Virus record (IMG/VR): IMGVR_UViG_3300041406_000131
Coordinates: 1-60,857 of that record
Strand: one strand, 5' to 3'
DNA: 60,857 nucleotides
From: a virus
Of the stretch, positions 16,882 to 49,897 are shown piece by piece. Below the pieces are notes generated by a model. The model searched no databases, was not told the DNA's origin, and saw only the letters and a list, made by a program, of their open reading frames with translations. A program made the translations under genes and the position numbers. Within the stretch, counting starts at the first letter, position 1, and each line of letters begins with the position of its first letter.

Positions 16882-18120
16882 TCAGGACGCCTTGTGCAGC
16901 CGGTCCAGCGCCGCAGCAGCGGCCGGGCTCGGTGTGCGCGTGTCCATGTAGTTGTCCTGCGCCATGGACGGCTTCGCCTGGCGCAGCATCACAGCGATCA
17001 CGCGACCACTCTCGCCAGCCTTGTCGAGCGCGGTGGCAACCGCACGCCGGCCATCGTGCGTCGTGAGCTTCGGGTAGCCGATCCGCAGCCGCAACCGCCG
17101 CACCGAGCGCTGCATGTTCGACGGCGACCGCCAGCCCATCGTGCGGGACGGGAAGACCGGGTCGTCCAAGCCCGCGCCAACCGGCTTGCGGATCAACAGC
17201 AGCAGGTACAGAAACTCGGGCATCAGGACGACCCCGTTACTCGAGAACGTCTTGCCCTCGTGCCGCACCACGCCCCGGCCTTTCACGTGCACCAGGTTGC
17301 CGTTGAACCAGATCCCGCGCGGCGGAACGACGACCTCGTTGCCATCGTCATCCTCCGAGACGATCGGCTCGTCAGTCAGGTTGACGTCGCGCCAGCGCAA
17401 CGCCAACGCCTCGCCGTAGCGGCAACCCACGCCAAACAGGACGCGGAGGAAGTCCGGCAGATCCTGCCGTGCCGCTCGCTTGTCGCCGTCGACGAGGGCG
17501 AAGAACGTGACGAGCGCGGGCCCGTCGAGCGCGACCTTCGTCCGGCGACGGCGGCCCTTGATGCGCTCCATCGACCGCGCGGGGTTGGTCTCGATCGCGC
17601 CCTGGTTGATGGCCTCCTGCAGAATCCCGCTCAGCACGACCCTGATGGCGCGGCGATTGCCCGCGGACTGGCCGGCGCTCTCCATTTCCCGGAACACCTC
17701 GTTGAGCCGCTTCGGCGTGCACTCACGAATCAGCAGTCCGCCGAGGGCGGACTTGAGGTGGTTCTCGTATCGACCTTTGTACCTGTCGTAGGTCGTGCCG
17801 GCCTGGCGCCGCTGGACGAGTTTCAGCCACTCCTCCGCGCATTCGTGAAACCGGGATGAGGCCGTGATCCTGCCTGCCTTGCTCGTGCCGAGGCGCTCGG
17901 CGAGGGCCTTCTTCAGATTCGAGACTGCCTTGTTCTCGCTCGGCCCGGTGCGCTCCATGGGGCGCGTGTAGCCGTCGGACGCCCGGTAGCGGGCGGATGC
18001 CTTGTACTGGTCGGGCGTGACGCCCTCTGGGACGCGGTGCAGCGGCATCCATGTGCCGTCGACGCGTGCCGACCTGTAGATCTCTCCGTAGGTGCCGATT
18101 TCCAGTGGAGGCCTAGCCAC
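16882..18120 (-). CDS. int: Tyrosine-type integrase
   Basis: 412 residues from GTG 18120 after GGGGGTGG. There is an arm-binding N-terminal domain (1-85), a core-binding SAM-like domain (about 90-185; TYDRYKGRYENHLKSALGGL) and a catalytic domain. Catalytic residues: Arg234 in CRYGEALAL, Lys near 280-290, His355 and Arg358 in TTHDGRR, Tyr391 in AQDNYMD. The position that is usually His/Trp is Gln381 (MLRQAKPS). It catalyses attP x attB recombination. It is transcribed away from attP, which lies just upstream. Confidence 0.93.
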   Translation of the reverse strand: MARPPLEIGTYGEIYRSARVDGTWMPLHRVPEGVTPDQYKASARYRASDGYTRPMERTGPSENKAVSNLKKALAERLGTSKAGRITASSRFHECAEEWLKLVQRRQAGTTYDRYKGRYENHLKSALGGLLIRECTPKRLNEVFREMESAGQSAGNRRAIRVVLSGILQEAINQGAIETNPARSMERIKGRRRRTKVALDGPALVTFFALVDGDKRAARQDLPDFLRVLFGVGCRYGEALALRWRDVNLTDEPIVSEDDDGNEVVVPPRGIWFNGNLVHVKGRGVVRHEGKTFSSNGVVLMPEFLYLLLLIRKPVGAGLDDPVFPSRTMGWRSPSNMQRSVRRLRLRIGYPKLTTHDGRRAVATALDKAGESGRVIAVMLRQAKPSMAQDNYMDTRTPSPAAAAALDRLHKAS

Positions 18121-18170
18121 GGTCCACCCCCGACGTCGCGAAAGCGTTGGGTTTTCGTTGGGTGACCGCA

Positions 18171-18190
18171 CTGTAGGCGCACTGTAGGCG
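18171..18190 (+). repeat. Two CTGTAGGCG repeats, 11-bp period, between attP core and int
   Basis: CTGTAGGCG at 18171-18179 and 18182-18190, 11 bp apart, in GCA-CTGTAGGCG-CA order. The same nonamer with the same spacing occurs three times at 19538-19568 and at 27712-27742. Here they could be arm-type integrase sites or operators repressing int. Confidence 0.7.
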
Positions 18191-18218
18191 CGTGCGCAAC
18201 TCGTCTACCTGCATTTTC

Positions 18219-18260
18219 TGGTGCCCCCGGTGCGACTCGAACGCACACTGGACGGGTGTG
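18219..18260 (-). other. attP core: 3' end of a tRNA gene
   Basis: On the minus strand 18246-18219 reads a T-arm (GTGCG TTCGAGT CGCAC), the acceptor 3' strand CGGGGGC, A and CCA. No matching 5' half (GCCCCCG and D-arm) precedes it, so it is not a gene but a copy of a tRNA 3' end, which restores the host tRNA on integration. The exact core probably extends to about 18260. I cannot fix the tRNA identity. Confidence 0.82.
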
Positions 18261-18650
18261 CATTCCGCTTTCTGCATGCATCCCTACATGTCTTGACTGT
18301 GTTCGTGGCCGTATCGCTGACCTGTGGTTCAGCATGCTATCCGTCTTGCTGACCGCACGCGCTGGCGTGTGGGGTTGTTACGGAGTGTCGCTGGTAGGCG
18401 TTGGGTAAACGTTTGGAATGATCTTGGTTCGACGTCCGGATCCCACAAACGATTGCGGGCACAACGAGATACGCCGACCGTCATGAACAAGCCAGTCAGC
18501 CCACCGCCAAATGCGGCGCGCTGCTCCATTCGGGCGGTAGTGATCGTTCACAAGCGTGCGTCGTTTCGCCTCTACGCAGTCCCCCTGCTTAGGTGGAATG
18601 CCTCAGCCACTCAAACAGCCCAATGGACCCAAACCACCAGGGGAACAGCG

Positions 18651-18914
18651 GTGACGGAAAGCACGGAACGTAGCGACGCACACCTCGCCCTCGCCGAACT
18701 CGTGAACGCGGCGCTGAGACGTGCGGGCAAGCTCGGGCCGACCACCGTCATCACCCACTGCGTGACCGTTGTGCAGACCCTCACCGAGACCGACACCGGC
18801 CCTCGCTTCGACATCCACCGCATCCACCCCATGGGCACACTCGACCCCAGCACGGAACGCGGCGTCCTCGCCGACGCCATCGAGGACTCGCGCAGGAACC
18901 GCTACGCCAGCTAG
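18651..18914 (+). CDS. Small protein next to the immunity repressor, function unknown
   Basis: 87 residues from GTG 18651, with AGGGGAA upstream. Ala/Leu-rich helix pair (HLALAELVNAALRRAGKLG), then VITHCVTVVQTL and a DIHRIHP turn; no membrane segment. It converges on the repressor, and their stops overlap by four bases. It is the only rightward gene between attP and the repressor and could be a lysogeny accessory protein. Confidence 0.6.
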   Translation: MTESTERSDAHLALAELVNAALRRAGKLGPTTVITHCVTVVQTLTETDTGPRFDIHRIHPMGTLDPSTERGVLADAIEDSRRNRYAS

Positions 18915-19444
18915 TCCTCCCGCGGCGGGTTGTACGCGGCCCGCCTGACGCGCTGCTCGCCCCCGCCTGCCGGTTCACCATGCGAGTAGACGCCCGCCTG
19001 CGCGGCCTCCCCGATAGACCGCACGACCGAGTCCGCGTGACGCTGCGGCGTCTCGGGGTCGATGTAGCCGCGTTCTCTCAACAGACTGTCCACGATGATC
19101 TCGATGGCCCGTATCTGCTCCGGCGCCAACTGCGCAACCTTGGAAGCCAGCTGCGTCTCCATGCCCTCGTCCACCACGGCAAGGTGGTCTTCCGGTTTGT
19201 AGCCAGCCAGCGTGAGCGCTTCCGAGACCGGGATCTGCAACGCCCGCGCCGCCTTGGCAATGATCTCGGCCTTGGGCGCCGAAAACGGGTAGTCGTCGCG
19301 CCGTCTCCCGTTCTCGATCTGCCAGAGCGTCTCCGCTCCGATGCCAGCACGTCGAGCGACCACCTTCAGCGGCTCCGTGCCGCGCGCCTCACGCACGCGT
19401 TCCCCCAGAGGCCACTTGTGCACCGCGTCGCTCATAGGGCGCAT
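18911..19444 (-). CDS. HTH (XRE-type) immunity repressor candidate
   Basis: 177 residues from ATG 19444 (ATG 19435 is also possible). Residues 12-75 hold an XRE helix-turn-helix: LGERVREARG ... VVARRAGIGAETLWQIENGR. A linker and a C-terminal helical region follow (EQIRAIEIIVDSLLRERG) that may dimerise. No protease-like LexA residues are seen. It is divergent from the Cro-like gene 126 bp away, the classical cI/cro arrangement. Confidence 0.8.
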   Translation of the reverse strand: MRPMSDAVHKWPLGERVREARGTEPLKVVARRAGIGAETLWQIENGRRRDDYPFSAPKAEIIAKAARALQIPVSEALTLAGYKPEDHLAVVDEGMETQLASKVAQLAPEQIRAIEIIVDSLLRERGYIDPETPQRHADSVVRSIGEAAQAGVYSHGEPAGGGEQRVRRAAYNPPRED

Positions 19445-19534
19445 CGTCCCGCAAAGCACCTCACGCCGCTACGCCCTGGTAGGCCGTGTCACGTCCGGTT
19501 AGAGCAGGTGGAGCAACAAGATCAGCCACTGACC

Positions 19535-19571
19535 TTGCTGTAGGCGCTCTGTAGGCTTACTGTAGGCGCTA
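19535..19571 (+). promoter_or_regulatory. Cro-side promoter with three 11-bp operator-like repeats and a leaderless start
   Basis: A -35-like TTGCTG (19535-19540) and -10-like TACTGT (19558-19563), 17 bp apart, put the transcript start at about 19570-19571, the A of the ATG. CTGTAGGCG-type repeats at 19538, 19549 (last base T) and 19560 overlap the spacer, the -10 and the start. An alternative pair is CTGACC (19529) and TAGGCT (19552). Either way the repeats cover the promoter. Confidence 0.7.
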
Positions 19572-19906
19572 TGAGTCCACCGACCCCGTGGCACAGCCTC
19601 CGTCACTACCGCCTCAAGGCAGGCCTCACCCACGCCAAGCTCGCACAAGCCGCAGACATGTCCGAGTCCGGCGTGCAGCACCTCGAGGCCGGCCGCCGCA
19701 GCCCTCGCCCGCAGACCGTCACCCGTCTCGCCAACGCGCTCAAGATTCCCGCCGACAAACTGCGGGCTGACCTGGCAAACAACCCCGCCGCCGAGGAACA
19801 GCTCGCTGAGCTGACCCAGCAGGTCGAGGTACTCGCCGAGCGCATCAAGCAGGTGACCGCGACCCTGCCCGACCAGCGCGCCAAGACCGAACAAGGGGCG
19901 GCATGA
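19571..19906 (+). CDS. Cro-like XRE transcription regulator
   Basis: 111 residues from ATG 19571, with no ribosome site: the repeat CTGTAGGCGCT directly precedes the ATG, so translation is likely leaderless. Residues 8-65 form an XRE domain (LTHAKLAQAADMSESGVQHL ... RLANALKIPADKL). The C-terminus is a short coiled coil (EEQLAELTQQVEVLAERIKQ). First gene of the long early operon; its stop overlaps the next start by 4 bp. Likely the lytic-side regulator. Confidence 0.82.
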   Translation: MSPPTPWHSLRHYRLKAGLTHAKLAQAADMSESGVQHLEAGRRSPRPQTVTRLANALKIPADKLRADLANNPAAEEQLAELTQQVEVLAERIKQVTATLPDQRAKTEQGAA

Positions 19907-20361
19907 GCACCCCGAGCGCTCCCGCGGTCCTGCGCAGCCTGCTGTTCCGCAACGCCGACGCGGGCCTGCCGGCGGTCGCCTACAACGCCGACGACACGAT
20001 CAAAGCCTTCGGCGTGTCCGCGTCCACCGTGTGGCGGTTGATCCGCAGCGGAGACCTGCCGACCCGCAACACAGGCAAGCAGTACCTCGTCTCCGGAGCG
20101 GTCATCATCGACGTCCTCGGTCGGGAGCCGGACGGCATCAACGACCCGCGCCGGGTGATCGACCCCGAGCGGCAGTACTTCATGAAGCAGTTCGCCGCGC
20201 TGCTCGGCGTGCCCTACCAGATCGCCCACCGGCTCACCCAGGGCACGGACGCCAAGATCACGCCCGAACGTGAGGGCACCCGCCTGTTCCTGCCAGGTCA
20301 GGCGATCCTCGCCTACCTCGCCGGGCACGACGAGCCGATCCGCTACCGCGCTTCCGCGTAG
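19903..20361 (+). CDS. Two-domain HTH DNA-binding protein (excisionase / MerR-like)
   Basis: 152 residues. The first helix-turn-helix at about 33-60 (AFGVSASTVWRLIRSGDLPT) has the winged pattern of excisionase-type domains. A second at about 95-140 (FAALLGVPYQIAHRLTQGTD ... RLFLPGQAILAYL) repeats it. It lies directly after Cro and could be the excisionase or an early regulator. Confidence 0.72.
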   Translation: MSTPSAPAVLRSLLFRNADAGLPAVAYNADDTIKAFGVSASTVWRLIRSGDLPTRNTGKQYLVSGAVIIDVLGREPDGINDPRRVIDPERQYFMKQFAALLGVPYQIAHRLTQGTDAKITPEREGTRLFLPGQAILAYLAGHDEPIRYRASA

Positions 20362-20424
20362 CTGCTCACCAGCACCTCACTACCTCTTCCGCACGCACCC
20401 CTGGCACCGGAAGGCCTGATCATC

Positions 20425-21201
20425 TTGACCTCCACTGAAACGACTAAGACCACGAGCCCGTGGCATCAGGGCTACCTCGTGTGCTTCGACCTCGAAACCA
20501 CCGGCCCCGACCCGACGACCGCGCGCATCGTCACCGCCGACGTCATCTGGTTGAACCCGGTCGATGGCGCCATCGCCGCGACCAAGAGCTACCTCGCCGA
20601 CCCCGGCATCGAAATCCCCGCCGAGGCCGCCGAGATCCACGGCATCACCACCGAGTACGCCCGCGTCCACGGCCAGCCCGCCGCCGACGTCGCGCTGCTC
20701 GTGCTCGACGACCTGGAGGCGGCGTGGAGTCGCGGACTGCCAGTCGTCGCGTTCAACGCCTGCTACGACCTCACCGTCACCGACCGCGAACTGCGCCGCC
20801 ACCACGACCGCCAACTCGCCATCACCGGCCCGGTGCTGGACCCGCTCGTCATCGACCGCGGCGTCGACAAGTGGCGGAAGGGCAGCCGCAAGCTCCCCGA
20901 CATGTGTCAGTTCTACGGCGTCACGCTGACGAACGCGCACAACAGCGCCGCCGACGCCGAGGCCGCCGGGCGGGTGATCGTCGCGCAGGCTCGACGACAC
21001 GCCGTGAAGGTCGGGAGGCGCGACCTGCGCTCGCTCTGGGGCGCCCAGCGTGCCTGGCACCGGGCGTGGGCCGACAACTACGAGTCCTACGTGCGTCGCA
21101 CCAAGGCCGAAGCGGGCGAGCCCGAAGCTGAGATCGCTGCCGTGCACATCAACCGCGAGTGGCCGCTGATCCCGTACGCCGAGAGCGAGGCCGCAGCATG
21201 A
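20425..21201 (+). CDS. DnaQ-like 3'-5' exonuclease
   Basis: 258 residues from TTG 20425 (GGAAGG ten bases upstream; no ATG/GTG fits). DEDDh nuclease motifs: DLETTG (22-27), a second Asp in FNACYD, and HNSAADA near 170 with the catalytic His and Asp. The AEIHGIT segment is also typical. It resembles the proofreading subunit or a stand-alone RNase T/DnaQ enzyme. It overlaps the next gene by 4 bp and belongs to the recombination-replication unit. Confidence 0.85.
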   Translation: MTSTETTKTTSPWHQGYLVCFDLETTGPDPTTARIVTADVIWLNPVDGAIAATKSYLADPGIEIPAEAAEIHGITTEYARVHGQPAADVALLVLDDLEAAWSRGLPVVAFNACYDLTVTDRELRRHHDRQLAITGPVLDPLVIDRGVDKWRKGSRKLPDMCQFYGVTLTNAHNSAADAEAAGRVIVAQARRHAVKVGRRDLRSLWGAQRAWHRAWADNYESYVRRTKAEAGEPEAEIAAVHINREWPLIPYAESEAAA

Positions 21202-22109
21202 CGATCATCGACGACCGCGCCATCGTCATCACCGAACCCGGCGTCTACGACATCCCCGCCGACGTCTACCACGCCGACCCCACCCCCAGCGGATCGCTCT
21301 CCTGCTCCGGTGCACGACTTCTGCTGCCGCCGAACTGCCCGGCCCTGTTCAAGCACCGCCTCGACAACCCCGCCCCGCCGAAACGCACCTTCGACCTCGG
21401 TCACGCCGCCCACAAACTCGTCCTCGGCACCGGCCCCGAGCTCGTCGTGGTCGACGCCAACGACTGGCGCACCAACGCCGCCAAGGCACAGCGTGACCAG
21501 GCGTACGAGGACGGCGCCGTACCGCTGCTCGTCCACGAGCACGACCAGGTCGAGGCGATGGCCGCCGCGCTCCGGCGACACCCCATCGCGGGCGCCATGT
21601 TCAACCCGGACGCCGGTCGCGCCGAGCAGTCGCTGTTCTGGTTCGACAAGCAGGCTGGTGTGTGGCGGCGAGCCCGCCTCGACTGGCTGCCGGACAACAC
21701 CGCCGCCAGCGGACGCCTGATCATCCCGGACTACAAGACGACCGCACGCGGCGACCTGGAGTCGATCCGCCGCTCGATCAACAACTATGGCTACCACCAG
21801 CAGTCCGCTTGGTACCAGGACGCGGCCGTCGCGCTCGACCTCGCGCCGCAAGCCGCTTTCGCGTTCGTCTTCCAGGAGAAGACCGCGCCGTACCTCGTGA
21901 CCGTTGTCGAGGTCGACGCGAATGCCCTCTACATCGGCCGCGAGCTCAACCGCAAAGCGCTCGACACCTACCGCCGCTGCTCCATCACAGGCCGCTGGCC
22001 GGGCTACGCCGACGACGACATCGCTCTCGTCGCCCTCCCGACTTACGCCGAAATCCAGCACGACCAGGCCGCCGCCCGCGGCGAATTCGACCTCACGGAG
22101 ACCCAGTGA
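21198..22109 (+). CDS. RecE-like / Cas4-type PD-(D/E)XK exonuclease
   Basis: 303 residues from ATG 21198. The start GVYDIPADVYHADPTPSGSL and the FDLGHAAHKLVLG helix are characteristic of RecE C-terminal / DUF3799 nucleases. The catalytic core appears as RLDWLP ... IIPDYKTT (D-x-K) followed by a YHQQSAWYQDA helix. It degrades 5' ends to give single strands for the annealing protein encoded just downstream. Confidence 0.88.
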   Translation: MTIIDDRAIVITEPGVYDIPADVYHADPTPSGSLSCSGARLLLPPNCPALFKHRLDNPAPPKRTFDLGHAAHKLVLGTGPELVVVDANDWRTNAAKAQRDQAYEDGAVPLLVHEHDQVEAMAAALRRHPIAGAMFNPDAGRAEQSLFWFDKQAGVWRRARLDWLPDNTAASGRLIIPDYKTTARGDLESIRRSINNYGYHQQSAWYQDAAVALDLAPQAAFAFVFQEKTAPYLVTVVEVDANALYIGRELNRKALDTYRRCSITGRWPGYADDDIALVALPTYAEIQHDQAAARGEFDLTETQ

Positions 22110-22927
22110 ACAACGCCGTCGAACCCCGCCCGGCCCCCGCCGCCACGCGGATCAGCCAAGGCACCGCGATCGAGCAGTCCCGCGCGGCCGCCGAGGTCCA
22201 CGCCGCCGTGCTGATCGCCCAACAGTGCCCGCGCGACGTGCCGAGCGCCGTGGCCTCGATGAAGCAGTCCTGCACGCAGATGGCGCTGGCCGAGCGCGCG
22301 TTCTACCGGTTCCCCCGCAGCGGCAGCACGGTGTCCGGACCGTCGATCTTCCTCGCCCGCGAGCTGGCCCGCTGCTGGGGCAACATCCAGTACGGCATCG
22401 CCGAACTCTCCCGCGACGACGAGCACGGCCAGTCCGAGATGCAGGCCTACGCGTGGGACGTGCAGACGAACTCCCGCAACGCCCACATCTTCATCGTGCC
22501 GCACAAGCGCGACACCAAGACCGGCGCCAAGGCGCTCGTCGACATGCGCGACATCTACGAGAACAACGCCAACCAAGGCGCCCGCCGCGTCCGTGAAGCG
22601 ATCTTCGCGATCCTGCCGCCGTGGTTCGTCGAGCAGGCCAAGGAACTGTGCACGGCAACGCTGAAGGACGGCGGCGGCAAGCCGCTCGCACAACGGGTCG
22701 CCGAGGCCATCGCGAAGTACGGCGAGCTCGGCATCACCCAGGACCAGATGGAACGCAAGCTCGAACGCCCGGCAGCGAAATGGATCGAGCAGGACGTCGC
22801 CCAGCTGATCACGATCTACCAGTCGTTGCAGCAGGGCACCGTGACCAAGGAGGAGGAGTTCCCGCCAGTCCGGATCACCGCCGCTGAGATCGCGAGCGCG
22901 GACGGAGCCAAGGCGAGCACGACATGA
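22106..22927 (+). CDS. Putative single-strand annealing protein (RecT-type partner)
   Basis: 273 residues; GTG overlaps the stop of the exonuclease gene. Conserved centre: MALAERAFYRFPRSGSTVSG, then LARELARCWGNIQYG and a Gln/Met-rich strand, DMRDIYENNANQGARRVREA, which is a strong helix typical of this phage family. Gene order (RecE-like next to it) strongly suggests a recombinase that anneals single strands; the sequence is not a classical RecT, so the family name stays open. Confidence 0.75.
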   Translation: MNNAVEPRPAPAATRISQGTAIEQSRAAAEVHAAVLIAQQCPRDVPSAVASMKQSCTQMALAERAFYRFPRSGSTVSGPSIFLARELARCWGNIQYGIAELSRDDEHGQSEMQAYAWDVQTNSRNAHIFIVPHKRDTKTGAKALVDMRDIYENNANQGARRVREAIFAILPPWFVEQAKELCTATLKDGGGKPLAQRVAEAIAKYGELGITQDQMERKLERPAAKWIEQDVAQLITIYQSLQQGTVTKEEEFPPVRITAAEIASADGAKASTT

Positions 22928-23286
22928 CCGCGGCCGCGCTGGTGCCGATGGGCGAGGTCACCCACTGCTGCGGCGATCACGCCGCGGGCCGCCACCGGAT
23001 CTGCTGCGACCCCGCCGACTGCACGCCGTGCTGCCCAGAGTGCCCAACCTGCCCCCAGGTCCAGATGGCCGAAGCAGTCATGCCCGGCCTCGGCAAGTTC
23101 CTCGCCAGGGAGAACGCCCGGCAGCTCGCCAGCGCCCGTGACCGCGGTGTCAGCACGGCCGTCGGCGACGCGCTGCTGCAGTTCGAGCTCGGCCGGCCCG
23201 GTCGCATGGTGATCACCCCGCCGATCGGGCTGGTCCTCAACTGGTTCTACGACGTCCACCTCGCCACCGTGAAGGAGCCATTCTGA
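22924..23286 (+). CDS. Cys-rich protein, probable zinc binding, function unknown
   Basis: 120 residues. The first 50 contain a dense Cys/His group (THCCGDHAAGRHRICCDPAD, then CTPCCPECPTC), consistent with one or two zinc sites. The C-terminal 70 residues are helical and contain LNWFYDVHLATVKEPF. It overlaps the annealing-protein stop by 4 bp and the next small gene by one base. It may bind DNA or a recombination partner. Confidence 0.7.
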   Translation: MTAAALVPMGEVTHCCGDHAAGRHRICCDPADCTPCCPECPTCPQVQMAEAVMPGLGKFLARENARQLASARDRGVSTAVGDALLQFELGRPGRMVITPPIGLVLNWFYDVHLATVKEPF

Positions 23287-23444
23287 TGAGCGTGGTCCTC
23301 GGCCTGGTCACCGCGCTGCTCCTCATCGCCGCGGCCTACCACCACGAAATGGCCGTCGCCGGCAACCCCGGCCGCCACCGCGAACAGCGGACACACCCCG
23401 GATGGGAAACCGACTACCGGCAGCTCGTCTCCCTCCGCCGCTAG
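23286..23444 (+). CDS. Small single-pass membrane protein (52 aa)
   Basis: ATG 23286 shares a base with the previous stop. Residues 3-18 form one hydrophobic helix (VLGLVTALLLIAAAYHH), followed by a polar, Arg/His-rich tail (GNPGRHREQRTHPG). Function unknown; such small membrane proteins are frequent in early phage operons. Confidence 0.6.
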   Translation: MSVVLGLVTALLLIAAAYHHEMAVAGNPGRHREQRTHPGWETDYRQLVSLRR

Positions 23445-23522
23445 CCCGCGGCCGGGCCCACTTCGCCACAGCCCGGCCGCACCCCAGCACCGCGCACCGC
23501 GCCCAACCACCCGAGGTGAAAC

Positions 23523-24125
23523 GTGACCCGCACCCACCGCACAACGCGGGACACCCCTGCGCCCGAGGACACCCCACGCGGACCCATCGCCCGCGCCGAC
23601 CCCCTCACCTCCACCGCCAGCCCCGCCATCCTCTCCGCCAGCACCGAATTCGTCGGCTGCCTGCTCAACCTCGACCCCGCCACGATCACCCCACTCCTCG
23701 AGCTCGTCCGCGACGAAGACCTCGACGGCCAAGTCGAACAACACGCCCTCACCCTCATCCGCGACCTCGTCAACCGGGGCGTCACCCCCACCTGCTCCAC
23801 CGTGCTCGCCCACGCCCAAACCAAAGGCATCAACACCCCCAACCTCCAACTGCTCACCGACCGGCTCATCGACGCCCACTTCTACTCGGCCGTCCCGAAC
23901 GCCGCGTGGCTCGCCGGAGTCGTCCTCGAGCAGGCATACCGACGCGCGGGAATCGAGTACGCCATCCGCATCACCCAGGCAGCCGAAGAACGCGGCCTCG
24001 CCGAGTTCGAGCAGGTACTCGCTGACCGCTCCGAACTCGGCGACCTCTGGCGCCGCCACCGCACAGCCACCACCGGCGCCACCACCCCCACCGTCACCGA
24101 CACCTCCCGGTCCGGTGTCGCATGA
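23523..24125 (+). CDS. DnaB N-terminal-like replication protein
   Basis: 200 residues from GTG 23523. After a disordered first 35 residues, residues 40-165 show the pattern of the DnaB N-terminal domain: EFVGCLLNLDPATITPLLEL, AQTKGINTPNLQLLTDRLID and a pair of helices with EYAIRITQAAEERG. There is no helicase core, so it may load or hold the downstream ATPase. It overlaps that gene by 4 bp. Confidence 0.68.
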   Translation: MTRTHRTTRDTPAPEDTPRGPIARADPLTSTASPAILSASTEFVGCLLNLDPATITPLLELVRDEDLDGQVEQHALTLIRDLVNRGVTPTCSTVLAHAQTKGINTPNLQLLTDRLIDAHFYSAVPNAAWLAGVVLEQAYRRAGIEYAIRITQAAEERGLAEFEQVLADRSELGDLWRRHRTATTGATTPTVTDTSRSGVA

Positions 24126-25699
24126 CGCACCTCACGCCGGTGCCCACGCCCAAACCCGACGAGACAGATCGGCCACGCGTCGTGATCAGTGATCGGGACC
24201 TCCACGAACTCGAAGTCGAACTCACCAAGCACATCCGCGAACGAAACGACTGCAACGGCGACCCGTACGTCTACATCCGCAACGGCAAGCTCGTCGAGGT
24301 AGACGTCGGCCGCGATGGCGAAGCACCGTCCATCCGGGACATGACCGCGTCGGCGTTCCGGTCCCGTGTCGTCGCCATGGTCGAGACCGTGAAGCTTGAC
24401 GCGAAGAAGGGCTACGCGGTGATGGCGGCGAAGCCCTCACTCGACGACCTGTCCGGCCTCTACGACCGCGCACACGCCCTCGGCGTCCCCCGCCTCAAGC
24501 AGGTCACCATGTGCCCGACGTTCGACAGCGACGGCGAATACCACGACCGTCCCGGCTACATCCCCCAAACCAGCACCTACTACGCCCCCGAAGCCGGCCT
24601 CTACCTCCCGCCAGTACCCGAGAACCCCACCGACGACGACGTCCAGGCCGCGCTGCAGCTGCTACGCGACGACCTCATCGGCGACTTCCTGTTCACCAAC
24701 CCCGAAGGCGACATCCCCGCCGTCCTCGGATTGATGCTCACCCCCATGGTCACCGAGCTCATCAACGGGCCCCGCCCCCTCTACGCCTTCGACGCCCCCA
24801 GCGCCGGATCCGGCAAAACCAAACTCGCCCGCATGGCCACCGGTCACGCCATCGGCGACGCCACCCTCCCCGCCGCACCCACCAACGCCGACGAATGGGC
24901 CAAATCGTTGGTGTCCCAAGCCCGCAAGGGCCGCGCCGTCATGATCTACGACAACGTCAACGACGTCGTCGACAGCGGCACCTTCGCCGGCGCCGTCACC
25001 GCCTACCCCGCCTGGGAAGCCCGCATCCTCGGCGTCAGCGAAAACGCCGAACTCGAATCCCCCGCCGCCTGGGTCATCACCGGCAACGGCATGGCCATGT
25101 CCGCCGAAATGTCCCGCCGCTCAATGATCATCCGCATCGAACCGCACCCCCGCGACTTCACCGGCTGGCGCCACAAAGACCTCGACCGGTGGGCCACCCA
25201 GAACCGCGGCAACATCCAAGCCGCCCTCGCCACCCTCGTCCAAGCCTGGATCGCCGCCGGCATGCCCGACGGCCAAGCCGTCCTGCCCTCGTTCGAAGCC
25301 TGGTGCCGAGTGATCGACGGCATCCTCCGCAACGCCGGCGTCGAAGGCCTCATGCACGGCCGCGACGAGCAGCTCGACGAGGTCGACGAGGAGAGCGCGC
25401 AGTGGGCGCAGTTCGCGCGGGCGTTCCTGGTACTCGATGACATCGGCAAGATCAAGGCGGAGGGTGCGACCGCGAGCGAGCTGATCAAGGCGCTGCGGGA
25501 GGAGCACGGCTCGAGCATCGCCGAGCTGCCGCTGGGCATCGACCACTTCACGTCGTCGGGCAGCCTCGGCAAGCGGCTAGGCGGTAAGCGTGGCGCAGTG
25601 ATCGGCACGAACGACGAGGACCAGGCACTGAAGTTGATGCGCAAGAAGGACCGGACGGGCATCTGGCGCTACCGCGTCGTGTCCGTAACGGCCAGCTGA
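24122..25699 (+). CDS. P-loop replication ATPase (helicase-type)
   Basis: 525 residues. Walker A is APSAGSGKTKLAR (about 228-240) and Walker B is VMIYDN (about 279-284). An Asn sensor ITGNG and Arg pair SRRSMIIRI follow, as in AAA+/SF3-like phage helicases. The first 190 residues are unique and the last 110 resemble a winged helix. Only this gene in the early operon has a helicase-type motor, so it is the likely replicative helicase; no phage polymerase is seen. Confidence 0.8.
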   Translation: MTHLTPVPTPKPDETDRPRVVISDRDLHELEVELTKHIRERNDCNGDPYVYIRNGKLVEVDVGRDGEAPSIRDMTASAFRSRVVAMVETVKLDAKKGYAVMAAKPSLDDLSGLYDRAHALGVPRLKQVTMCPTFDSDGEYHDRPGYIPQTSTYYAPEAGLYLPPVPENPTDDDVQAALQLLRDDLIGDFLFTNPEGDIPAVLGLMLTPMVTELINGPRPLYAFDAPSAGSGKTKLARMATGHAIGDATLPAAPTNADEWAKSLVSQARKGRAVMIYDNVNDVVDSGTFAGAVTAYPAWEARILGVSENAELESPAAWVITGNGMAMSAEMSRRSMIIRIEPHPRDFTGWRHKDLDRWATQNRGNIQAALATLVQAWIAAGMPDGQAVLPSFEAWCRVIDGILRNAGVEGLMHGRDEQLDEVDEESAQWAQFARAFLVLDDIGKIKAEGATASELIKALREEHGSSIAELPLGIDHFTSSGSLGKRLGGKRGAVIGTNDEDQALKLMRKKDRTGIWRYRVVSVTAS

Positions 25700-25773
25700 T
25701 GTCCGATAGCGGACCTCGTTCTGTCTGACTCGTGCACGATCAGTCCGTTGCGCTCACTCTTTTGGAGGACCAG

Positions 25774-26262
25774 GTGTACCGAAACATTGAGCCGATGAAA
25801 CGGGCGGAGTTGCTTGCGCTGCCTGAGGTCATCGACATCCGTACCGCTGCGCAGGCTCTCGGAATCGGCCAGACCAAGGCCTACGAGATGGCCCGCACCG
25901 AGACTTTCCCGGTCAAGGTACTTCGCGTCGGCAACAGATACCGCATCGTCACCGAGAACCTCCTGAAGCTGCTTGAAGTTGAGTCAGATGAGCCGACGCA
26001 GGAACAGGCCAGCACCGTCTGCTCCTGCGCCTCGCCACACCTGACCGATGACCAACTACGCGCGCTACCGCCCCTCATGTCACTTGAAGACGTAGCGCCA
26101 ATCCTGGACCTCGCTAAATCGACCGCATACGCGCTGGCCAAGACAGGCGATCTTCCGGTAGCCACTGTGCAGGTCGGCGCGCGCATGAAAATCCGCCGCT
26201 GCGACCTCCTGGAATTCCTTGGCATCCCGCAACAATCGCCCCCAAGGGAGGCAAGCAAGTGA
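25774..26262 (+). CDS. Protein with two excisionase-like HTH domains
   Basis: 162 residues from GTG 25774, five bases after GGAGG. Two units of a winged helix-turn-helix: DIRTAAQALGIGQTKAYEMA ... VLRVGNRYRI (about 20-60) and SLEDVAPILDLAKSTAYALA (about 108-150). It overlaps the next gene, which carries one more copy of the same domain. The family binds DNA as excisionases or regulators. The upstream 75-base gap holds no clear promoter. Confidence 0.75.
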   Translation: MYRNIEPMKRAELLALPEVIDIRTAAQALGIGQTKAYEMARTETFPVKVLRVGNRYRIVTENLLKLLEVESDEPTQEQASTVCSCASPHLTDDQLRALPPLMSLEDVAPILDLAKSTAYALAKTGDLPVATVQVGARMKIRRCDLLEFLGIPQQSPPREASK

Positions 26263-26471
26263 GCAGCCCCACGCTTGACGAGATCCGCTCCTGGCCCGCC
26301 GTTGTTGGGCTCGTTCAGGCGGCGGCCGCGCTCAGCATCGGCAGGACGAAGGCGCACGAGATGGCGCGCGCTGGCACGTTCCCGATCTGGCTGCTGCGCC
26401 TCGGCACGCGCTACCGGGTGTCCACGGCGGACATTCTGACCTTCCTGGGAGCCGACGATGATCGGCCCTGA
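26259..26471 (+). CDS. Single-domain excisionase-like HTH protein
   Basis: 70 residues from GTG 26259. It is homologous to the first and second domains of the preceding gene (AAAALSIGRTKAHEMARAGT ... LLRLGTRYRV). The pair looks like a duplication of one domain, then splitting. It could be the integrase's recombination directionality factor; the other candidates are 19903 and 49638. Confidence 0.72.
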   Translation: MSSPTLDEIRSWPAVVGLVQAAAALSIGRTKAHEMARAGTFPIWLLRLGTRYRVSTADILTFLGADDDRP

Positions 26472-26739
26472 CAACCGCGCCGCTGAAATCATCGGCGGCC
26501 CGCTCGACGGCCAAGTGCGCCATCGGGGACGCGCGAAATTTCCAAGCTACCTGGACGACGACGGCGCCACGCTGGCGGTCAGCAAGGGGCACAGGGAAGC
26601 GGCCCGTTCAAGCCGCTCGCGCTACTACTTTCTCGATGTCGCAATGCCTGACGAATCGCACCAGTTCGCTCGGCACGTCTACGTTCACGGCACGGCATGG
26701 GCAACGTGGAGGCCACGGCGACGCTCCGTGGGAACCTGA
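26458..26739 (+). CDS. Small protein, function unknown
   Basis: 93 residues from ATG 26458, overlapping the HTH gene by 14 bases. Starts IGPDNRAAEIIGGPLDGQ, a motif found in several phage proteins of unknown role, and ends with a basic tail (ATWRPRRRSVGT). No membrane or metal motif. Confidence 0.6.
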   Translation: MIGPDNRAAEIIGGPLDGQVRHRGRAKFPSYLDDDGATLAVSKGHREAARSSRSRYYFLDVAMPDESHQFARHVYVHGTAWATWRPRRRSVGT

Positions 26740-26756
26740 CCAGGGAGGCAACGACG

Positions 26757-27122
26757 ATGGACACGAGCGCCCTGCAGCACGTCCTGGATGCGATCACCGC
26801 CGTCACGGCAGACGTGTGCGGCTGGTGCAACACGGTGCTTCCAGCCGACGCACCGTCCCTGGACTACTGCTCCGAGGAACATCAGGGCCGCTGGCTCGCC
26901 CATCAGGCCGACGTCGAACCGGTGCCCATCAGCCAGGTGTTCGACGAGCTCGTCGCTGACCTCCTCGCGCGACTGCCCTCGCCGCCCATGCTGTTCACCA
27001 GCACGACGCCGGACAGTGTCTCCCTCCGCTACAGGTACATGCTCGAACGGCGGCTGTCCTACGGAGTTGGCCTGGGCATCAACAACCAGAGCGCACTCCT
27101 CCGAGACATCAACATCGCCTGA
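26757..27122 (+). CDS. Zinc-ribbon-like protein, function unknown
   Basis: 121 residues from ATG 26757, with AGGGAGGC upstream. A CGWCNTVL ... YCSEEHQGRW motif gives C-x2-C and a later Cys/His set, as in small zinc ribbons. The C-terminal half (SQVFDELVADLLARLPSPP) is helical. It is the last gene before the iteron region. Confidence 0.65.
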   Translation: MDTSALQHVLDAITAVTADVCGWCNTVLPADAPSLDYCSEEHQGRWLAHQADVEPVPISQVFDELVADLLARLPSPPMLFTSTTPDSVSLRYRYMLERRLSYGVGLGINNQSALLRDINIA

Positions 27123-27233
27123 GAACCACCCACCGGGCGCCCGGTCAGCACCAGCTGCCGGGCGCTCCGTCATGCGGGCATGCGCGCAGGTCGCACCTCA
27201 CCGACCGCCTACGAAGCGCCCACAGCCCGCGCC

Positions 27234-27573
27234 GCAGGGACTCCCTGCAGGGAATGCAGGGATTGCCGCCAGCCCCGCCACCAGCACCTGCAGGGCACGC
27301 AGGGAGTCCTGCAGGGATTCACGCAGGGGATAGCCACAACCCCCGCACCACCCCTGACCAGGCAATTGCAGGGGATGCAGGGGATGCAGGGATTCAAACC
27401 GAACCGCTGCGCGCACACGGGCGCGCACATGCGCACACCACGCGTAAGGGTCAAAAACAACCCCTGCAAACCCAGCAACCCCTGCAAACCCCAGGTCAAA
27501 GGCCCAATCCACCCCAACCACAACCCCTGCATTCCACGACCCCAACCCCTGCAACCCCAGCACCAACCCCTGC
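27234..27573. repeat. Bipolar iteron array: ten GCAGGG, then five CCCTGC
   Basis: GCAGGG on the + strand at 27234, 27247, 27256, 27290, 27299, 27311, 27323, 27368, 27377 and 27386; several read TGCAGGGGA. After a GCGC-rich centre (27409-27443) the complement CCCTGC occurs at 27462, 27480, 27525, 27547 and 27568, mostly as AACCCCTGCA. Many gaps are 9 or 12 bp. It resembles initiator-binding iterons at an origin or a partition site. Confidence 0.7.
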
Positions 27574-27707
27574 ACACCCCCAGCAGACCGCAGACCGGTC
27601 GCTGTAGGCGCTCACGCAATATGGGCAGGGCGGGTTGCGTGGCGGGTGGACGGTGTTCGAGCAGGTCACTGGGGCGGCGGACTGCGACACGAAAGGGTCA
27701 CGCCCTC

Positions 27708-27743
27708 TTGTCTGTAGGCGTTTTGTAGGCGTACTGTAGGCGC
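27708..27743 (+). promoter_or_regulatory. Promoter with three 11-bp CTGTAGGCG repeats upstream of 27775
   Basis: -35-like TTGTCT (27708-27713), -10-like TACTGT (27732-27737), 18 bp apart; start expected near 27744. Repeats at 27712, 27723 (first base T) and 27734. It aligns over about 40 bp with the promoter at 19535. Here a short leader with ACGGAG precedes the ATG. Confidence 0.7.
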
Positions 27744-28373: not shown

Positions 28374-28679
28374 ATGGACTGGCGTCACCGCGCGATTTGC
28401 CGCGACGAGGACCCCGAACTGTTCTTTCCCACCGGCGAAGAGCACTGCACCGGCAGACCGCCGACCGGCCCGGTCGCCGCTCAGAACGACGAGGCAAAGG
28501 CCGTGTGCCTCCGTTGCCCAGTCGTCTCCGACTGTCTCGCCTGGGCCGTTGACGAGGGCCTGCCGTTTGGCGTCGCGGGCGGCATGACCGCCGACGAGCG
28601 CCGCGCCCTCCGCCCCCACCGGCCGCGCGCCAAGCGCACCACTCCGGTTCGTGGCCGTCCCCGCCGCCGCGCCTCCTGA
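28374..28679 (+). CDS. whiB: WhiB-family iron-sulfur regulator
   Basis: 101 residues from ATG 28374 with GGAGAGGAG seven bases upstream. The WhiB layout is complete: first Cys in HRAICRDEDPELFFP, then AVCLRCPVVSDCLAWAVDEG (C-x2-C-x5-C) and GVAGGMTADERR, the hallmark loop. A basic C-terminus (RAKRTTPVRGRPRRRAS) can bind DNA. WhiB proteins hold a 4Fe-4S cluster and act with the host sigma factor. Phage copies can block host WhiB function. Confidence 0.92.
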   Translation: MDWRHRAICRDEDPELFFPTGEEHCTGRPPTGPVAAQNDEAKAVCLRCPVVSDCLAWAVDEGLPFGVAGGMTADERRALRPHRPRAKRTTPVRGRPRRRAS

Positions 28680-44558: not shown

Positions 44559-46601
44559 CTATGCGGCGCGGTGGACGCGGCGGCCGTTCGGGTCGTCGAC
44601 GGACTCGATGTGACCTTTGCTGCGTAGCCGCGAGAGGGCGTTCTCGACGCTCGACTTCGACGTCTTCTCGTAGCCGGCGGCGCCGAGTGCGTCGAGGATC
44701 TCGTCAGTGGTCATGCCGTCTGTGCTGTCCGTCAGCATGGAGGCGATGAACTTCTGCATCGGCGGCCGCGAGGGCTCGTCCTCGACCACACGCAGTTGAG
44801 GGCCCTCCAGCTCAGCGCGGAGGCGGGCGATGGTCGCCGCGGTGTCAGCGGCAGCGTCGTACTCGACGATCTCCAACGCGGGCTGCGTGAACGGCGCGGG
44901 GCCGACGGCACGCAGGTAGTTGTGGTACTCGAGCGTCATGGTCTGCGGGCGGTCGCGGTACATCTGCGTGCCCGGTGCGATGCGGCCCCCGGAACGGGCC
45001 ATGACCAGCGAGGATCGAGCGCGCGAGACGTCGGTGAGCGTGGCGCCCTCATGCAGCCTGGTCAGCCGGACGTCGGTCTCCTGGATGTAGCGGGCCTTCG
45101 CCGGGTAGGGGTCGGAGCCGTCTTGGATGTAGAACTCGCCTGGTTGGTAGAGGTGCGGCAAGCTCGCGCCGCCGCGGCCGAACGCCCTGGACCGCTCGTC
45201 GCCTGACCTCGAGCGCATGAGGATCGTGTAGCCGCAGTTCTCTTTGATCGACGCTGCGTCATCGCCGAACATCGGGTTGTCGTACTCCTGCGCGAGGAAC
45301 ACCCAGTGCACGCTCGCGGAGTTGGTGGAACGCGTGGCGTGACCGGCGAAACCGCTGGTGGAGTACTCGGTGCCTTCGAAGGTGATGCGGGCCCGGCGGT
45401 CGCGCAGCACCCGCGGCGCCTCCTCGATGATGATCCACAGCGGGTCGAGGTTGAGGCGGTCGGCGTGTGGCAGGTTCTGCCGCCACCGGGCCTCGCTGAA
45501 GCCCTCGGCCATCATCGCCAGCGTGTCCTTCTGGCCCTCGACGACCCAGTCCAACGGCAGACGGTTGTCCGTGCCCAGGTGTGGGTCGAGCCACTGGCCG
45601 GCGATGTCGTAGACCTTCTCCGCGCCGCACAGCCACACCCGGCCGGGCAGGCGTGTCAGCTCGGCGATCATGACGTTGACCAGCGACGTCTTGCCGGATT
45701 TGGTGGCGCCGCAGATGACGCCGTGCTGGTAGGGGTTGAGCATCGCGGGCTCGCCATGGATCTGCGCGCCCAGCTTCAGGTGGGAGCCGCGGGGCAGCAT
45801 GTCGTTGTTGAGCTCGTACGGGTGGGCCTTGGACAGGATGTCCTCGGTCGCGACTGTGACACGGACCCGGTTCGGGCGCGGCGTGGACTGGATCCGCACC
45901 CACCTGGTCTCCATGGCGACGTTCATGCACTCCTCGACCGCTGTGGCCAGGTCTTCCTCGTCACCAAGCTGCAGCGGTCGGACCTTGGTGACGTCCTCGC
46001 CGGCGAGCTCGGATGCGCTCCGCGGGGTGAGCGCCCGTGCTTCGAACGTGCATCCGTTGTGGTCGTCGGGCAGCGGATCCACCCTGGTGATCAGCACGTG
46101 TGGCCAGCCGCCACGCAGCAGGATCGACTGCATGAGTTCGTCAGCCGTCTGGAAGTGCGGGTTGTCATTGTGGACGAGGGTCGGTTCGTACACCTCGACC
46201 TCGCTGGTCTGGGGCGCGGGCGGCGCCGGAGGGGGCAGTAGCTGGGTGAGCCGGTATTCCCAGCCCTTCGCCACCGCGAATTCCAGCGCCGCGAGCGCCA
46301 TCAGCCGGTAGATGTGGTTCTTCCAGTCGACGGGGTCGGCGAGGGTCCACACGATCCATGCGCACTGGACCAGCACCGCGAAGGTGATAGCCCAGGACAT
46401 CGCGCGCCGCGCGTTCTTCGAGAAGTCGACGTAGGCGATGCCTCGTCCTACCGCGCCGTGCCACCACCAGGCCGCGAAGGCGACGACCCCAACACAACCC
46501 GTCGCGACGGTGGTCGGCGACCAGCCCACCATCGCCAGCACGGTCGCGGCGATGGCGGAGAGGGTGAAGCCGGCGAGGATGTAGAACAGCTTCTGCGACA
46601 C
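44559..46601 (-). CDS. FtsK/SpoIIIE-type DNA translocase (TraB-like)
   Basis: 680 residues from GTG 46601. Four hydrophobic helices at about 7-25, 33-48, 68-88 and 97-112. Walker A GATKSGKT (298-305), Walker B PLWIIIEEAP (388-397). Residues 610-680 are a winged helix (TDEILDALGAAGYEKTSKSS). This layout is that of the TraB/TraSA translocases which move double-stranded DNA between mycelia in Streptomyces plasmids and AICEs. A cell-division FtsK would have a longer linker. A function in phage DNA movement is also possible. Confidence 0.85.
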   Translation of the reverse strand: MSQKLFYILAGFTLSAIAATVLAMVGWSPTTVATGCVGVVAFAAWWWHGAVGRGIAYVDFSKNARRAMSWAITFAVLVQCAWIVWTLADPVDWKNHIYRLMALAALEFAVAKGWEYRLTQLLPPPAPPAPQTSEVEVYEPTLVHNDNPHFQTADELMQSILLRGGWPHVLITRVDPLPDDHNGCTFEARALTPRSASELAGEDVTKVRPLQLGDEEDLATAVEECMNVAMETRWVRIQSTPRPNRVRVTVATEDILSKAHPYELNNDMLPRGSHLKLGAQIHGEPAMLNPYQHGVICGATKSGKTSLVNVMIAELTRLPGRVWLCGAEKVYDIAGQWLDPHLGTDNRLPLDWVVEGQKDTLAMMAEGFSEARWRQNLPHADRLNLDPLWIIIEEAPRVLRDRRARITFEGTEYSTSGFAGHATRSTNSASVHWVFLAQEYDNPMFGDDAASIKENCGYTILMRSRSGDERSRAFGRGGASLPHLYQPGEFYIQDGSDPYPAKARYIQETDVRLTRLHEGATLTDVSRARSSLVMARSGGRIAPGTQMYRDRPQTMTLEYHNYLRAVGPAPFTQPALEIVEYDAAADTAATIARLRAELEGPQLRVVEDEPSRPPMQKFIASMLTDSTDGMTTDEILDALGAAGYEKTSKSSVENALSRLRSKGHIESVDDPNGRRVHRAA

Positions 46602-46641
46602 GGCCGAGCTCCTTTCTCGCAGGTCAAGGTGGTGAGACGGG

Positions 46642-46659
46642 GGTGAGGTGAGAGGTGAG
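46642..46659. repeat. Copy of the GGTGAGG repeat unit
   Basis: 18 bp identical to the first 18 bp of the right arm at 44534. Lies between the FtsK gene and the basic membrane protein gene, so the FtsK gene is flanked by these repeats. Confidence 0.75.
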
Positions 46660-46662
46660 ACG

Positions 46663-48300
46663 TCAGGCTGCGCTGGCGGCTTCCTTGTTCGCCTCGTCCT
46701 GGTAGCCGGCCGCGATGGTGCGGCAGGTGCTGGCGTCCTCCCGGAGGGTGGCTGCCTCCTCGCGGCGCTTGTCGGCGGCGATCGTGTTGCCGGTCCGCTG
46801 GAACTCCTCGGCGGCTGCGATCTTCTTGTCGGCCTTCTCGTCGAACGCGACGGCGTCTCGGCGGGCGTCGTCAGCGGCCTCGCCCCAGCCAGTGGCCCGT
46901 CCTTCGGGCGTGGTGGTGATGTGGTGGGCGTAGTTGGCGGCTGAGATGCGGGGGGCCGCGGCCTGCTGCGTGATCTTCGGTGCCTGCTGGGTCACTGGTT
47001 TTCCTCCGTGCTTCGTGTTTTCGCTGGTGATACGGGGTGCCTCACGGTGAGGCGGGGGTTCGTATTTGCGTGGTGGCGGTGGCCGGCTGCCGGGCGGGTC
47101 GCGGTCCCGTGCGACCTGTAACGACCGATCAACTGGGGCGGGCTCGTCGTCGGGGTCCTCGTTGGGCCACTGCGGGTCGAGTGCGGTCCGGACTGGCGGA
47201 GGCGGGACCGGCTTGACCTCGTCCTGATCGACCTCGGGCCAGGACGGCCCGGTGCCGGGGCGCGTCAGCTCGCGGTTGCTTTTGACCTTGGTGGTGGCAT
47301 AGCCGTCCTTGGTCATACCGGGGGTGGTCTCGCCGACAGCGTCAGCGACGAGACCGAGAAGTTCAGCGACGGCCCGAACCTTGTCTCGTGCCGCCTTGGC
47401 GACGGTTTCGGTGGCGCTCTTGCCGGTGGGGCGTTTGCCTGTGGTCGGCCGGCCGCCGGTCTTTGAGGTCGAGGGGACGCGCGCGCCTGCCCTCCGGGCC
47501 GCCCGGCCCCGGTGGGCGGTGTTGCCCGCCGCACGGCCGCCTGTCGGGGTTGCGCCCGGTGCACGTCTGCGTCGGCCGCCCGTCGGGTTGCCTGCCGTGC
47601 TGCCCGCCGCGGCTGCCCGGCGTCGCCCGCGCGGTGTGATCCGGGCGAACGCTGCCCGCGCCCGCTGCCGTAGCCCGCCCGCAGGAGATCCGCCCGGGCT
47701 GCCCGCGCGGGCAGTACGGCGTTGCCCGCGGGTGCCGCCCGCCCACGACGGCAGCGCTGCCCGCATCCGGGCACCCAGTCCGCGCGGGCGGCCACCCGGA
47801 CCACCCGCCCGCAGCCCGCCCGTACGGCTGCCCGCGGACGGCCGCCCGAGTGCCCGGCCCATCACCCGCCCGAGCGGGGAGCGGGCGAACCGCCCACTGG
47901 GCATCCGCCGCATCGCCCTGCCTGCCCGGGCGACACCGGGCAGCCTGCGGGCAACTGCCCGCGCCCGCCCGGAGCGACGCAGCACCACCACACCCGCGCC
48001 ACCCGCCGCGGCCACGCCGGCGGCGATCCACCACAGCGTGGGCGAGGCGACGTACACGAGGACGAGCACGACGGCCCCCGCCGCGGGCACGCCGAGCAGC
48101 AGCAGTGCGCGCAAGGGGTCGATGCCGTCGTGCTGGAACTGCGGCGGCTGCGGTGCCGCGGGCTTGGCCTGCGGTTTCACCTTCGTCTCACCTGTGACCT
48201 CACCAGGTGAGGCTGGGCGTGAGGGCCGCGGTGCCGGTGCTGGTGGTGGCGTGGGGCGCGGTGCACTGGGCGGCTTGGAGCCTTCGGGGGGCCAGGTCAT
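46663..48300 (-). CDS. Basic membrane protein of the transfer-like module
   Basis: 545 residues from ATG 48300, overlapping the DUF2637 gene's stop. Residues 1-55 are Pro-rich; 64-103 hold two membrane helices (LRALLLLGVPAAGAVVLVLV; LWWIAAGVAAAGGAGVVVLR). Residues 105-300 are Arg/Gly/Ala-rich and strongly basic, likely binding DNA. Residues 440-545 are a helical, Ala/Glu-rich end. It may couple DNA to the membrane with the translocase; similar Spd/Tra proteins are known from actinomycete plasmids, but no family match can be claimed. Confidence 0.72.
   Translation of the reverse strand: MTWPPEGSKPPSAPRPTPPPAPAPRPSRPASPGEVTGETKVKPQAKPAAPQPPQFQHDGIDPLRALLLLGVPAAGAVVLVLVYVASPTLWWIAAGVAAAGGAGVVVLRRSGRARAVARRLPGVARAGRAMRRMPSGRFARSPLGRVMGRALGRPSAGSRTGGLRAGGPGGRPRGLGARMRAALPSWAGGTRGQRRTARAGSPGGSPAGGLRQRARAAFARITPRGRRRAAAAGSTAGNPTGGRRRRAPGATPTGGRAAGNTAHRGRAARRAGARVPSTSKTGGRPTTGKRPTGKSATETVAKAARDKVRAVAELLGLVADAVGETTPGMTKDGYATTKVKSNRELTRPGTGPSWPEVDQDEVKPVPPPPVRTALDPQWPNEDPDDEPAPVDRSLQVARDRDPPGSRPPPPRKYEPPPHREAPRITSENTKHGGKPVTQQAPKITQQAAAPRISAANYAHHITTTPEGRATGWGEAADDARRDAVAFDEKADKKIAAAEEFQRTGNTIAADKRREEAATLREDASTCRTIAAGYQDEANKEAASAA
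48198..48212. repeat. Palindrome CCTCACC-A-GGTGAGG
   Basis: 15-bp odd palindrome inside the basic membrane protein gene, using the same GGTGAGG unit as the repeats at 44468 and 46642. Confidence 0.5.
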
Positions 48301-49172
48301 CCGACAGCCACCTCCTCATCCTTGACGGTGTGCAGGTCCGGGCGGGCGGCTGCCTCGCGCAGGCGGGCGGCGCGGGGCTGCCCGATGCCGAACTCGGCGC
48401 GCATCCACGGCACCTTGGGCAGATCGCCCGTCTGTGGGTCGCGGGCTGCCCGCAGGCGGGCGATCAGGTCGAGGTCCTCGTCGGACAGGCGGGCGGCGGG
48501 CGTGCCTGGTCGGGCTGCCTGGCGGGCGGGCAGCTTCGGGCGGGCAGATGTGGCCGGGCGGAGGACCGGGCGGGCGGTGCGGGCGGGCGGTTCGGGGGCC
48601 GTCTCGCCCGGCGTGCTTTGGGGGGTCGCGGGCGAGACGGCATGCGGCTCGTCGCCTGCCCGCGGGGGGATCGGCGGGCGACGGGCGGAGTCGGTGTGGG
48701 CGGGTAGTGCGGGCGACTCGTCGACAGCTGCCTGGGCGGTGTCGGCAGCGGTGCGGGCGGCCCGCCCGAGGGAGACGAGTGCGAAGCCGGAGATGAGCAT
48801 CAGGCCGTCAACGACGAGCGGGCCGACGATCGCCTGATGCTGGTCGTAGCCCCAGGCGATCAACACCTCGTAGATGTGGCCGTAGGAGATGGTGGCGGAG
48901 CCGAGGGCGACGGCGACGATGCCCGCGGTGCGGACGAGGCGCCATCCCCAGCCGTCCGGCCAGGACACGCGGGAGAGGACCTCGACGCTGACGATGAGGG
49001 TGAGGGGCCAGACGATGGCGGCGGCCTGGGAGGCGACGCTGGGGACGGTGCTGTGCAGCCACGCGGACTGGAGGTTGAAGCCGACCGAGACGGCCGAGCC
49101 GAGGCCGAAGCCTGCGAGTGCCCACCAGAAGCCTGGTGCTCGAGGTGGCTTGATGTGGCTGGCGGTGTTCAC
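48297..49172 (-). CDS. DUF2637-type membrane protein (Spd-like)
   Basis: 291 residues from GTG 49172 with GGGAG upstream. Four helices (about 15-33, 47-67, 80-98, 113-135). The sequence ISYGHIYEVLIAWGYD ... PLVVDGLMLISGF is the signature of DUF2637 proteins, which are found mainly in Streptomyces plasmids and AICEs close to tra/spd genes. The C-terminus (140-291) is disordered, then a winged-helix-like piece near 230-280 (SDEDLDLIARLRAARDPQTG). Confidence 0.85.
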   Translation of the reverse strand: MNTASHIKPPRAPGFWWALAGFGLGSAVSVGFNLQSAWLHSTVPSVASQAAAIVWPLTLIVSVEVLSRVSWPDGWGWRLVRTAGIVAVALGSATISYGHIYEVLIAWGYDQHQAIVGPLVVDGLMLISGFALVSLGRAARTAADTAQAAVDESPALPAHTDSARRPPIPPRAGDEPHAVSPATPQSTPGETAPEPPARTARPVLRPATSARPKLPARQAARPGTPAARLSDEDLDLIARLRAARDPQTGDLPKVPWMRAEFGIGQPRAARLREAAARPDLHTVKDEEVAVG

Positions 49173-49223
49173 GGTCGGGTTCTCCCTTGGTTCAGGCGAG
49201 GCGGGCGAGCTGGTCGGCGCCGA

Positions 49224-49496: not shown

Positions 49497-49542
49497 CGGG
49501 TTCCCCTCGTGTTCTTCAGGTCCAGTGGTGGTGATCCGCTGG

Positions 49543-49641
49543 TCAGGCCGGGATGGTGAGCTGGTCGGTCATGACGAGCACGACCAGGCACAGCAGCGCC
49601 AACACCAGTGCGACCAGTGCGTTGATCAGGTGCGGGCTCAT
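49543..49641 (-). CDS. Very small membrane protein (32 aa)
   Basis: ATG 49641, overlapping the HTH gene's stop. Nearly the whole chain is one hydrophobic helix (LINALVALVLALLCLVVLVM). Such small hydrophobic genes are typical of spd loci in actinomycete plasmids. Confidence 0.55.
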   Translation of the reverse strand: MSPHLINALVALVLALLCLVVLVMTDQLTIPA

Positions 49642-49859: not shown

Positions 49860-49897
49860 TGAGCCCTCCTGTCTCCCGCATCTGCGTTAGCAGCCAA

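Follow-up and report, generated by a model that had tools for sequence, protein, structure and literature searches.

The question raised by this locus is whether a short word repeated at the attachment site and in front of two operons of one phage is an operator, and which protein would read it. The window (the whole stretch of DNA analysed, 60,857 bases, IMG/VR record IMGVR_UViG_3300041406_000131) is derived from a virus, an actinobacterial-type phage, and was found to encode terminase, portal, capsid and tape-measure genes; it also contains int and an att core resembling a tRNA. The nonamer CTGTAGGCG was found in seven exact copies in the window against 0.35-0.70 expected (Markov orders 1-3), all of them outside confident genes. 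The original prediction was to be abandoned if the nonamer proved common in coding DNA, and within this phage it did not. The coding background consists mostly of one-mismatch matches, which were read as largely GCC-TAC codons (Ala-Tyr) from the other strand. The nine array sites of the original prediction were all found, at 18171, 18182, 19538, 19549, 19560, 27602, 27712, 27723 and 27734, two of them with one mismatch each (19549, CTGTAGGCT; 27723, TTGTAGGCG). The 8-mer TGTAGGCG was present in 12 copies in the window against 1.1-2.6 expected, and same-strand TGTAGGC pairs with a spacing of exactly 11 bp numbered five, where 0.0017 would be expected given how often TGTAGGC occurs.

The array cores were found to be asymmetric, with no inverted repeat over array 2 or within array 3. 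A sister phage (IMGVR_UViG_3300037193_002766) was found to contain the pairs, the triples and the single site at every equivalent place. Across the nine aligned sites, which fall in four groups in these two phages, 70 of 72 core positions (8 bp per site) and 15 of 27 spacer positions (3 bp per site) were identical (p = 1.2e-6). A core that is fixed while its spacer varies is predicted for binding sites and not for a minisatellite. Taken from the sequence, there is strong evidence that the arrays are protein-binding sites, and a regulon of tandem, non-palindromic sites one helical turn apart, as had been proposed, is well supported by the 11-bp pair statistics and by conservation in the second phage.

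The attachment region was found to contain the following features.

16882..18120, minus strand: tyrosine integrase (Int), GTG start at 18120 preceded by GGGGGTGG; Pfam Phage_integrase/Phage_int_M, phrog_1; 79% identical in the sister
18145..18163, plus strand: near arm, two CGTTGGGT 11 bp apart, identical in the sister; putative Int arm-type sites by their sequence
18171..18190, plus strand: array 1, two CTGTAGGCG 11 bp apart, between the arm-type sites and the att core; sister 8276/8287
18219..18265, minus strand: att core, similar in sequence to a tRNA gene from its T arm through the acceptor stem to CCA (3' part)
18393..18417, plus strand: far arm, GGTAGGCG (7 of 8) at 18393 overlapping CGTTGGGT, followed by CGTTTGGA 11 bp on

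No complete tRNA was found at the att core by ARAGORN. The far-arm site, which goes beyond the original prediction, is a perfect TGTAGGCG in the sister, and sites of the TGTAGGCG type are present on both arms of the att core, each beside CGTTGGGT repeats (perfect in the sister, 7/8 on the far arm of the window). Array 1 overlaps a possible int -10 assigned by eye, TACAGT (minus strand, 18175-18170; TACATT in the sister), which the near-arm pair may cover; no int promoter was called there by the promoter scanner. A small conserved gene at 18650-18914, ending ...DPSTERGVLADAIEDSRRNRYAS, lies between attP and the 18911 gene, is convergent with it and is kept in the sister.

The early switch region was found to contain two divergent regulatory genes followed by a third, with array 2 between the first two.

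18911..19459, minus strand: putative lysogeny repressor 18911, HTH_31/XRE-type, just below the Pfam cut-off; 64% identical in the sister
19535..19563, plus strand: proposed early promoter TTGCTG-17-TACTGT, filled by array 2, assigned by eye; sister TTGTTT-18-TAATGT
19538..19568, plus strand: array 2, three repeats CTGTAGGCG, CTGTAGGCT, CTGTAGGCG; sister 9625/9636/9647
19571..19906, plus strand: Cro-like HTH_31/HTH_3 protein 19571, first gene of the early operon; 72% identical in the sister
19903..20361, plus strand: HTH_17 (excisionase/MerR-like) protein 19903, second gene; Pfam HTH_17 5e-9, phrog_66; 74% identical in the sister

Array 2 ends 2 bp 5' of the ATG of 19571, which is probably leaderless, and no match was found at the proposed early promoter by the sigma-70 scanner. 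A block of about 60 bp between 18911 and 19571 (19463-19525), nearly invariant between window and sister, contains the palindrome CGTGTCACG, and a related sequence, GACACGAAAG(G/T)GTCACG, is present directly 5' of the middle array (27686-27702). From its sequence, this palindrome block may, together with the related copy, be a candidate operator of an XRE-type repressor.

The middle region was found to contain a single site, a triple array and a leftward pair.

27206..27225, minus strand: array 5, decayed leftward pair CTGTGGGCG CT TCGTAGGCG, one mismatch per unit
27602..27610, plus strand: single CTGTAGGCG after GACCGGTC; sister 18463
27708..27737, plus strand: proposed middle promoter TTGTCT-18-TACTGT, filled by array 3, assigned by eye; sister TTGTTT-18-TAATGT
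27712..27742, plus strand: array 3, three repeats CTGTAGGCG, TTGTAGGCG, CTGTAGGCG; sister 18575/18586/18597

Array 3 lies upstream of the middle operon, which runs from 27775 onward and contains a WhiB-like gene at 28374-28679 (WhiB, 1.2e-23); the sigma-70 scanner gave no match at the proposed middle promoter. Both triple arrays occupy the space from a TTGnnn hexamer to a TAnTGT hexamer; these hexamers were assigned by eye and are conserved in the sister. In the window the single site at 27602 lies 110 bp (ten 11-bp units) from 27712; the sister has 112 bp here, and the helical phase of the single site is therefore probably not meaningful. The leftward pair, also new relative to the original prediction, is intact in the sister (18121/18110), where it stands in front of a leftward gene of 196 amino acids; no relative of this gene was found in the window. 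Decay of the site where its gene is lost is a small natural control. The stretch 27240-27580, flanked by the leftward pair and the middle promoter, has dense CCCCTGCA / TGCAGGG repeats on both strands, their kind conserved in the sister, and is a possible replication origin.

The closest known system is Apl of phage 186, a parallel that the original prediction had not drawn. Apl is an excisionase that also represses, and its direct repeats, found both at attP and at the switch, have a spacing of 10-11 bp; its binding is cooperative, with about three adjacent sites needed for efficiency (PMC7498355). As in 186, direct repeats one helical turn apart were found here as the 11-bp pairs, with array 1 and the far-arm site at attP and array 2 at the lytic/lysogenic switch; the sites overlap likely promoters here and repressed promoters in 186. 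The three sites at both promoters match Apl's three, which is suggestive. The site sequence, however, is unrelated, the switch genes are divergent here, and there are extra arrays, one of them at the middle operon at a distance of 8 kb and another, in the sister, in front of the leftward gene. Cox of P2-like phages is likewise an excisionase that represses early promoters through direct sites repeated every 10-11 bp, and the likeness again extends to both attP and the switch promoters, but Cox is the product of the first early gene whereas the HTH_17 protein here comes second, after the Cro-like gene. The face-to-face lytic and lysogenic promoters with sites between them, as arranged in P2-like phages, were not found; since 18911 and 19571 are divergent, the present system is described as working like Apl/Cox and is not placed among their P2-like members. 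The operators of lambda cI/Cro also lie over a divergent early control region, but they are palindromic whereas the repeats here are direct. Gordonia phage Twister6, which has a similar gene order, contained no such repeats at its switch.

The likeliest binder is 19903, with the Cro-like 19571 and the repressor 18911 as remaining candidates. The HTH_17 domain of 19903 was found above the curated cut-off (36.7 bits against 27), and its phrog_66 match is annotated 'excisionase and transcriptional regulator'. Other, filament-forming HTH_17/MerR-like proteins, namely Pukovnik Xis, RdfS and BldC, bind DNA head to tail with about one unit per turn (PMC11963761), and this supplies a mechanism for the arrays, although the sites of RdfS and BldC show little sequence consensus whereas the arrays contain an invariant 7-bp core. 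The C-terminal half of 19903 may, on weak evidence, form a second winged HTH (internal repeat, p about 0.02-0.05). Its predicted structure was too poor for reading a fold (pLDDT 38.6), and a PDB search gave no close or convincing sequence relative. Only two HTH_17 genes were found in the sister, the relative of 19903 and one 47% identical to window 49638. The HTH_17 proteins 25732 and 26259 have no counterpart there and were excluded as the conserved binder; their two adjacent genes (25732-26471), one with two tandem domains, are a feature of the window. Relatives of 19903 were absent from the genome-contig, phage and plasmid collections, and an IMG/VR search with 18911, 19571, 19903 and a primase-like protein returned the sister as the sole record. 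With only two phages covariation between protein and site cannot be read, and the similar conservation of the three proteins cannot separate them as binder. The proposal of a cooperative regulator with excisionase-like or HTH monomers therefore stands in part: the attP sites and the HTH_17 domain of 19903 fit it, and 18911 and 19571 stay candidates.

The preferred reading, to which a probability of about 0.4 is given, is that the arrays are operators for one phage DNA-binding protein, most likely 19903, working like Apl or Cox. Monomers of this phage-encoded protein would line up head to tail along one face of the helix, each on one TGTAGGCG unit. At attP, beside the Int arm-type sites, the binder would act as a recombination directionality factor, and the int promoter may be covered as well; if three sites are needed as for Apl, the int pair would have to be supported by Int or by weak sites nearby. 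At the early and middle promoters, and at the leftward one in the sister, accumulated binder would occlude RNA polymerase and lower expression; as the early promoter that array 2 covers also drives 19903, this would make the circuit autorepressive. Against this reading, three equal units are not obviously suited to a two-domain 19903, the scanner called no standard promoter at the arrays, and P2-like phages have the excisionase as first early gene with facing switch promoters, whereas here 19571 is first and the genes are divergent.

That the lysogeny repressor 18911 instead binds the arrays, so that a lysogen keeps its early, middle and int promoters silent, is considered somewhat improbable. 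Some actinophage repressors recognise asymmetric sites, and 18911 is of the HTH_31/repressor type, is divergent from the early promoter, and would be expected at lytic promoters, which an immunity repressor must silence and on which the arrays sit. This explanation leaves the far-arm attP site, abutting an Int arm repeat, without a reason, and the repressor's own operator may lie instead in the separate block with CGTGTCACG; the attP sites favour an excisionase-type protein over a lysogeny repressor as the binder. Less probable again is that the Cro-like 19571 is the Apl analogue, which would bind at attP and at two promoters, its own and that of the middle operon: it holds the gene position of Apl and Cox as first in the early operon, with its start codon just 3' of array 2, but its profile matches ordinary XRE proteins such as the 434 repressor, which are normally dimers on palindromes, and excisionase families gave no match.

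Another binder (the arm-binding domain of Int, the second conserved HTH_17 protein 49638 on the minus strand, or a host factor), or activation by the arrays in place of repression, is regarded as quite unlikely. The 11-bp spacing is common to the arm-type CGTTGGGT repeats, and TGTAGG arrays adjoin integrases in Clostridia too; for Int, however, it would be odd to have arrays at promoters lying 1.3 and 9.5 kb away from attP, the homologue of 49638 is far away and only 47% identical, and overlap with the likely -10 is unusual for an activator. Chance or a neutral minisatellite, though perfect 11-bp TGTAGG minisatellites occur in Bacteroidales and others, is contradicted by the variable spacers, the fixed cores and the retention of nine sites in four groups in two phages, and can hardly be right.

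A wider and more tentative form of the Apl/Cox-like proposal is that one small phage regulator uses a single type of operator to coordinate integration and excision, the early switch and the distant middle operon. The Apl/Cox logic would then reach beyond a local switch to a phage regulon spanning the genome, and each chain may carry two winged-helix domains that read neighbouring repeats. If true, in this actinobacterial-type phage one operator word would link the attachment site with the promoters of the early and middle genes, and the level of a single protein would control gene expression as well as the direction in which recombination runs. As their core is invariant and their spacing defined, the arrays would provide a clean model for excisionase-type reading of tandem sites, and the operator word would be usable for finding regulons in unannotated phages.

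The word TGTAGGCGNNNTGTAGGCG was found in 12 stretches in all of IMG/VR, and the sister was the only record carrying it at several separate regulatory places; the only IMG/VR record found with relatives of 19903, 19571 or 18911 is the same one. Single TGTAGGCGNNNTGTAGGCG matches in other contigs (L228-L234) were coding or unrelated. Relaxed TGTAGG arrays in Enterococcus prophages, beside Clostridia integrases and in Bacteroidales minisatellites were judged convergent, since they have a different repeat unit, other spacers and other genes next to them. Around 80 contigs from prophages, probably of Enterococcus (L141-L226, e.g. L148:3399), were found to contain TTTTGTAGGGTTTTTGTAGGGATAGTGTAGGG just 3' of a gene which we take to be ArpU-like and 5' of a TATTAT-type -10; these are possible late-promoter activator sites at 11-bp spacing. 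The Clostridia examples (L036:155, L227:1680, L059:4356, L087:3087) contained 11-bp TGTAGGA arrays beside integrases whose N terminus is zinc-ribbon-like, or next to one recurring host gene, and are possible Int or Xis arm sites. Elsewhere in the window, a leftward cluster at 44559-50797, containing an FtsK/SpoIIIE-like protein (weak match), an HTH_17 protein and a GntR-UTRA regulator, resembles a conjugative-element module within the phage genome.
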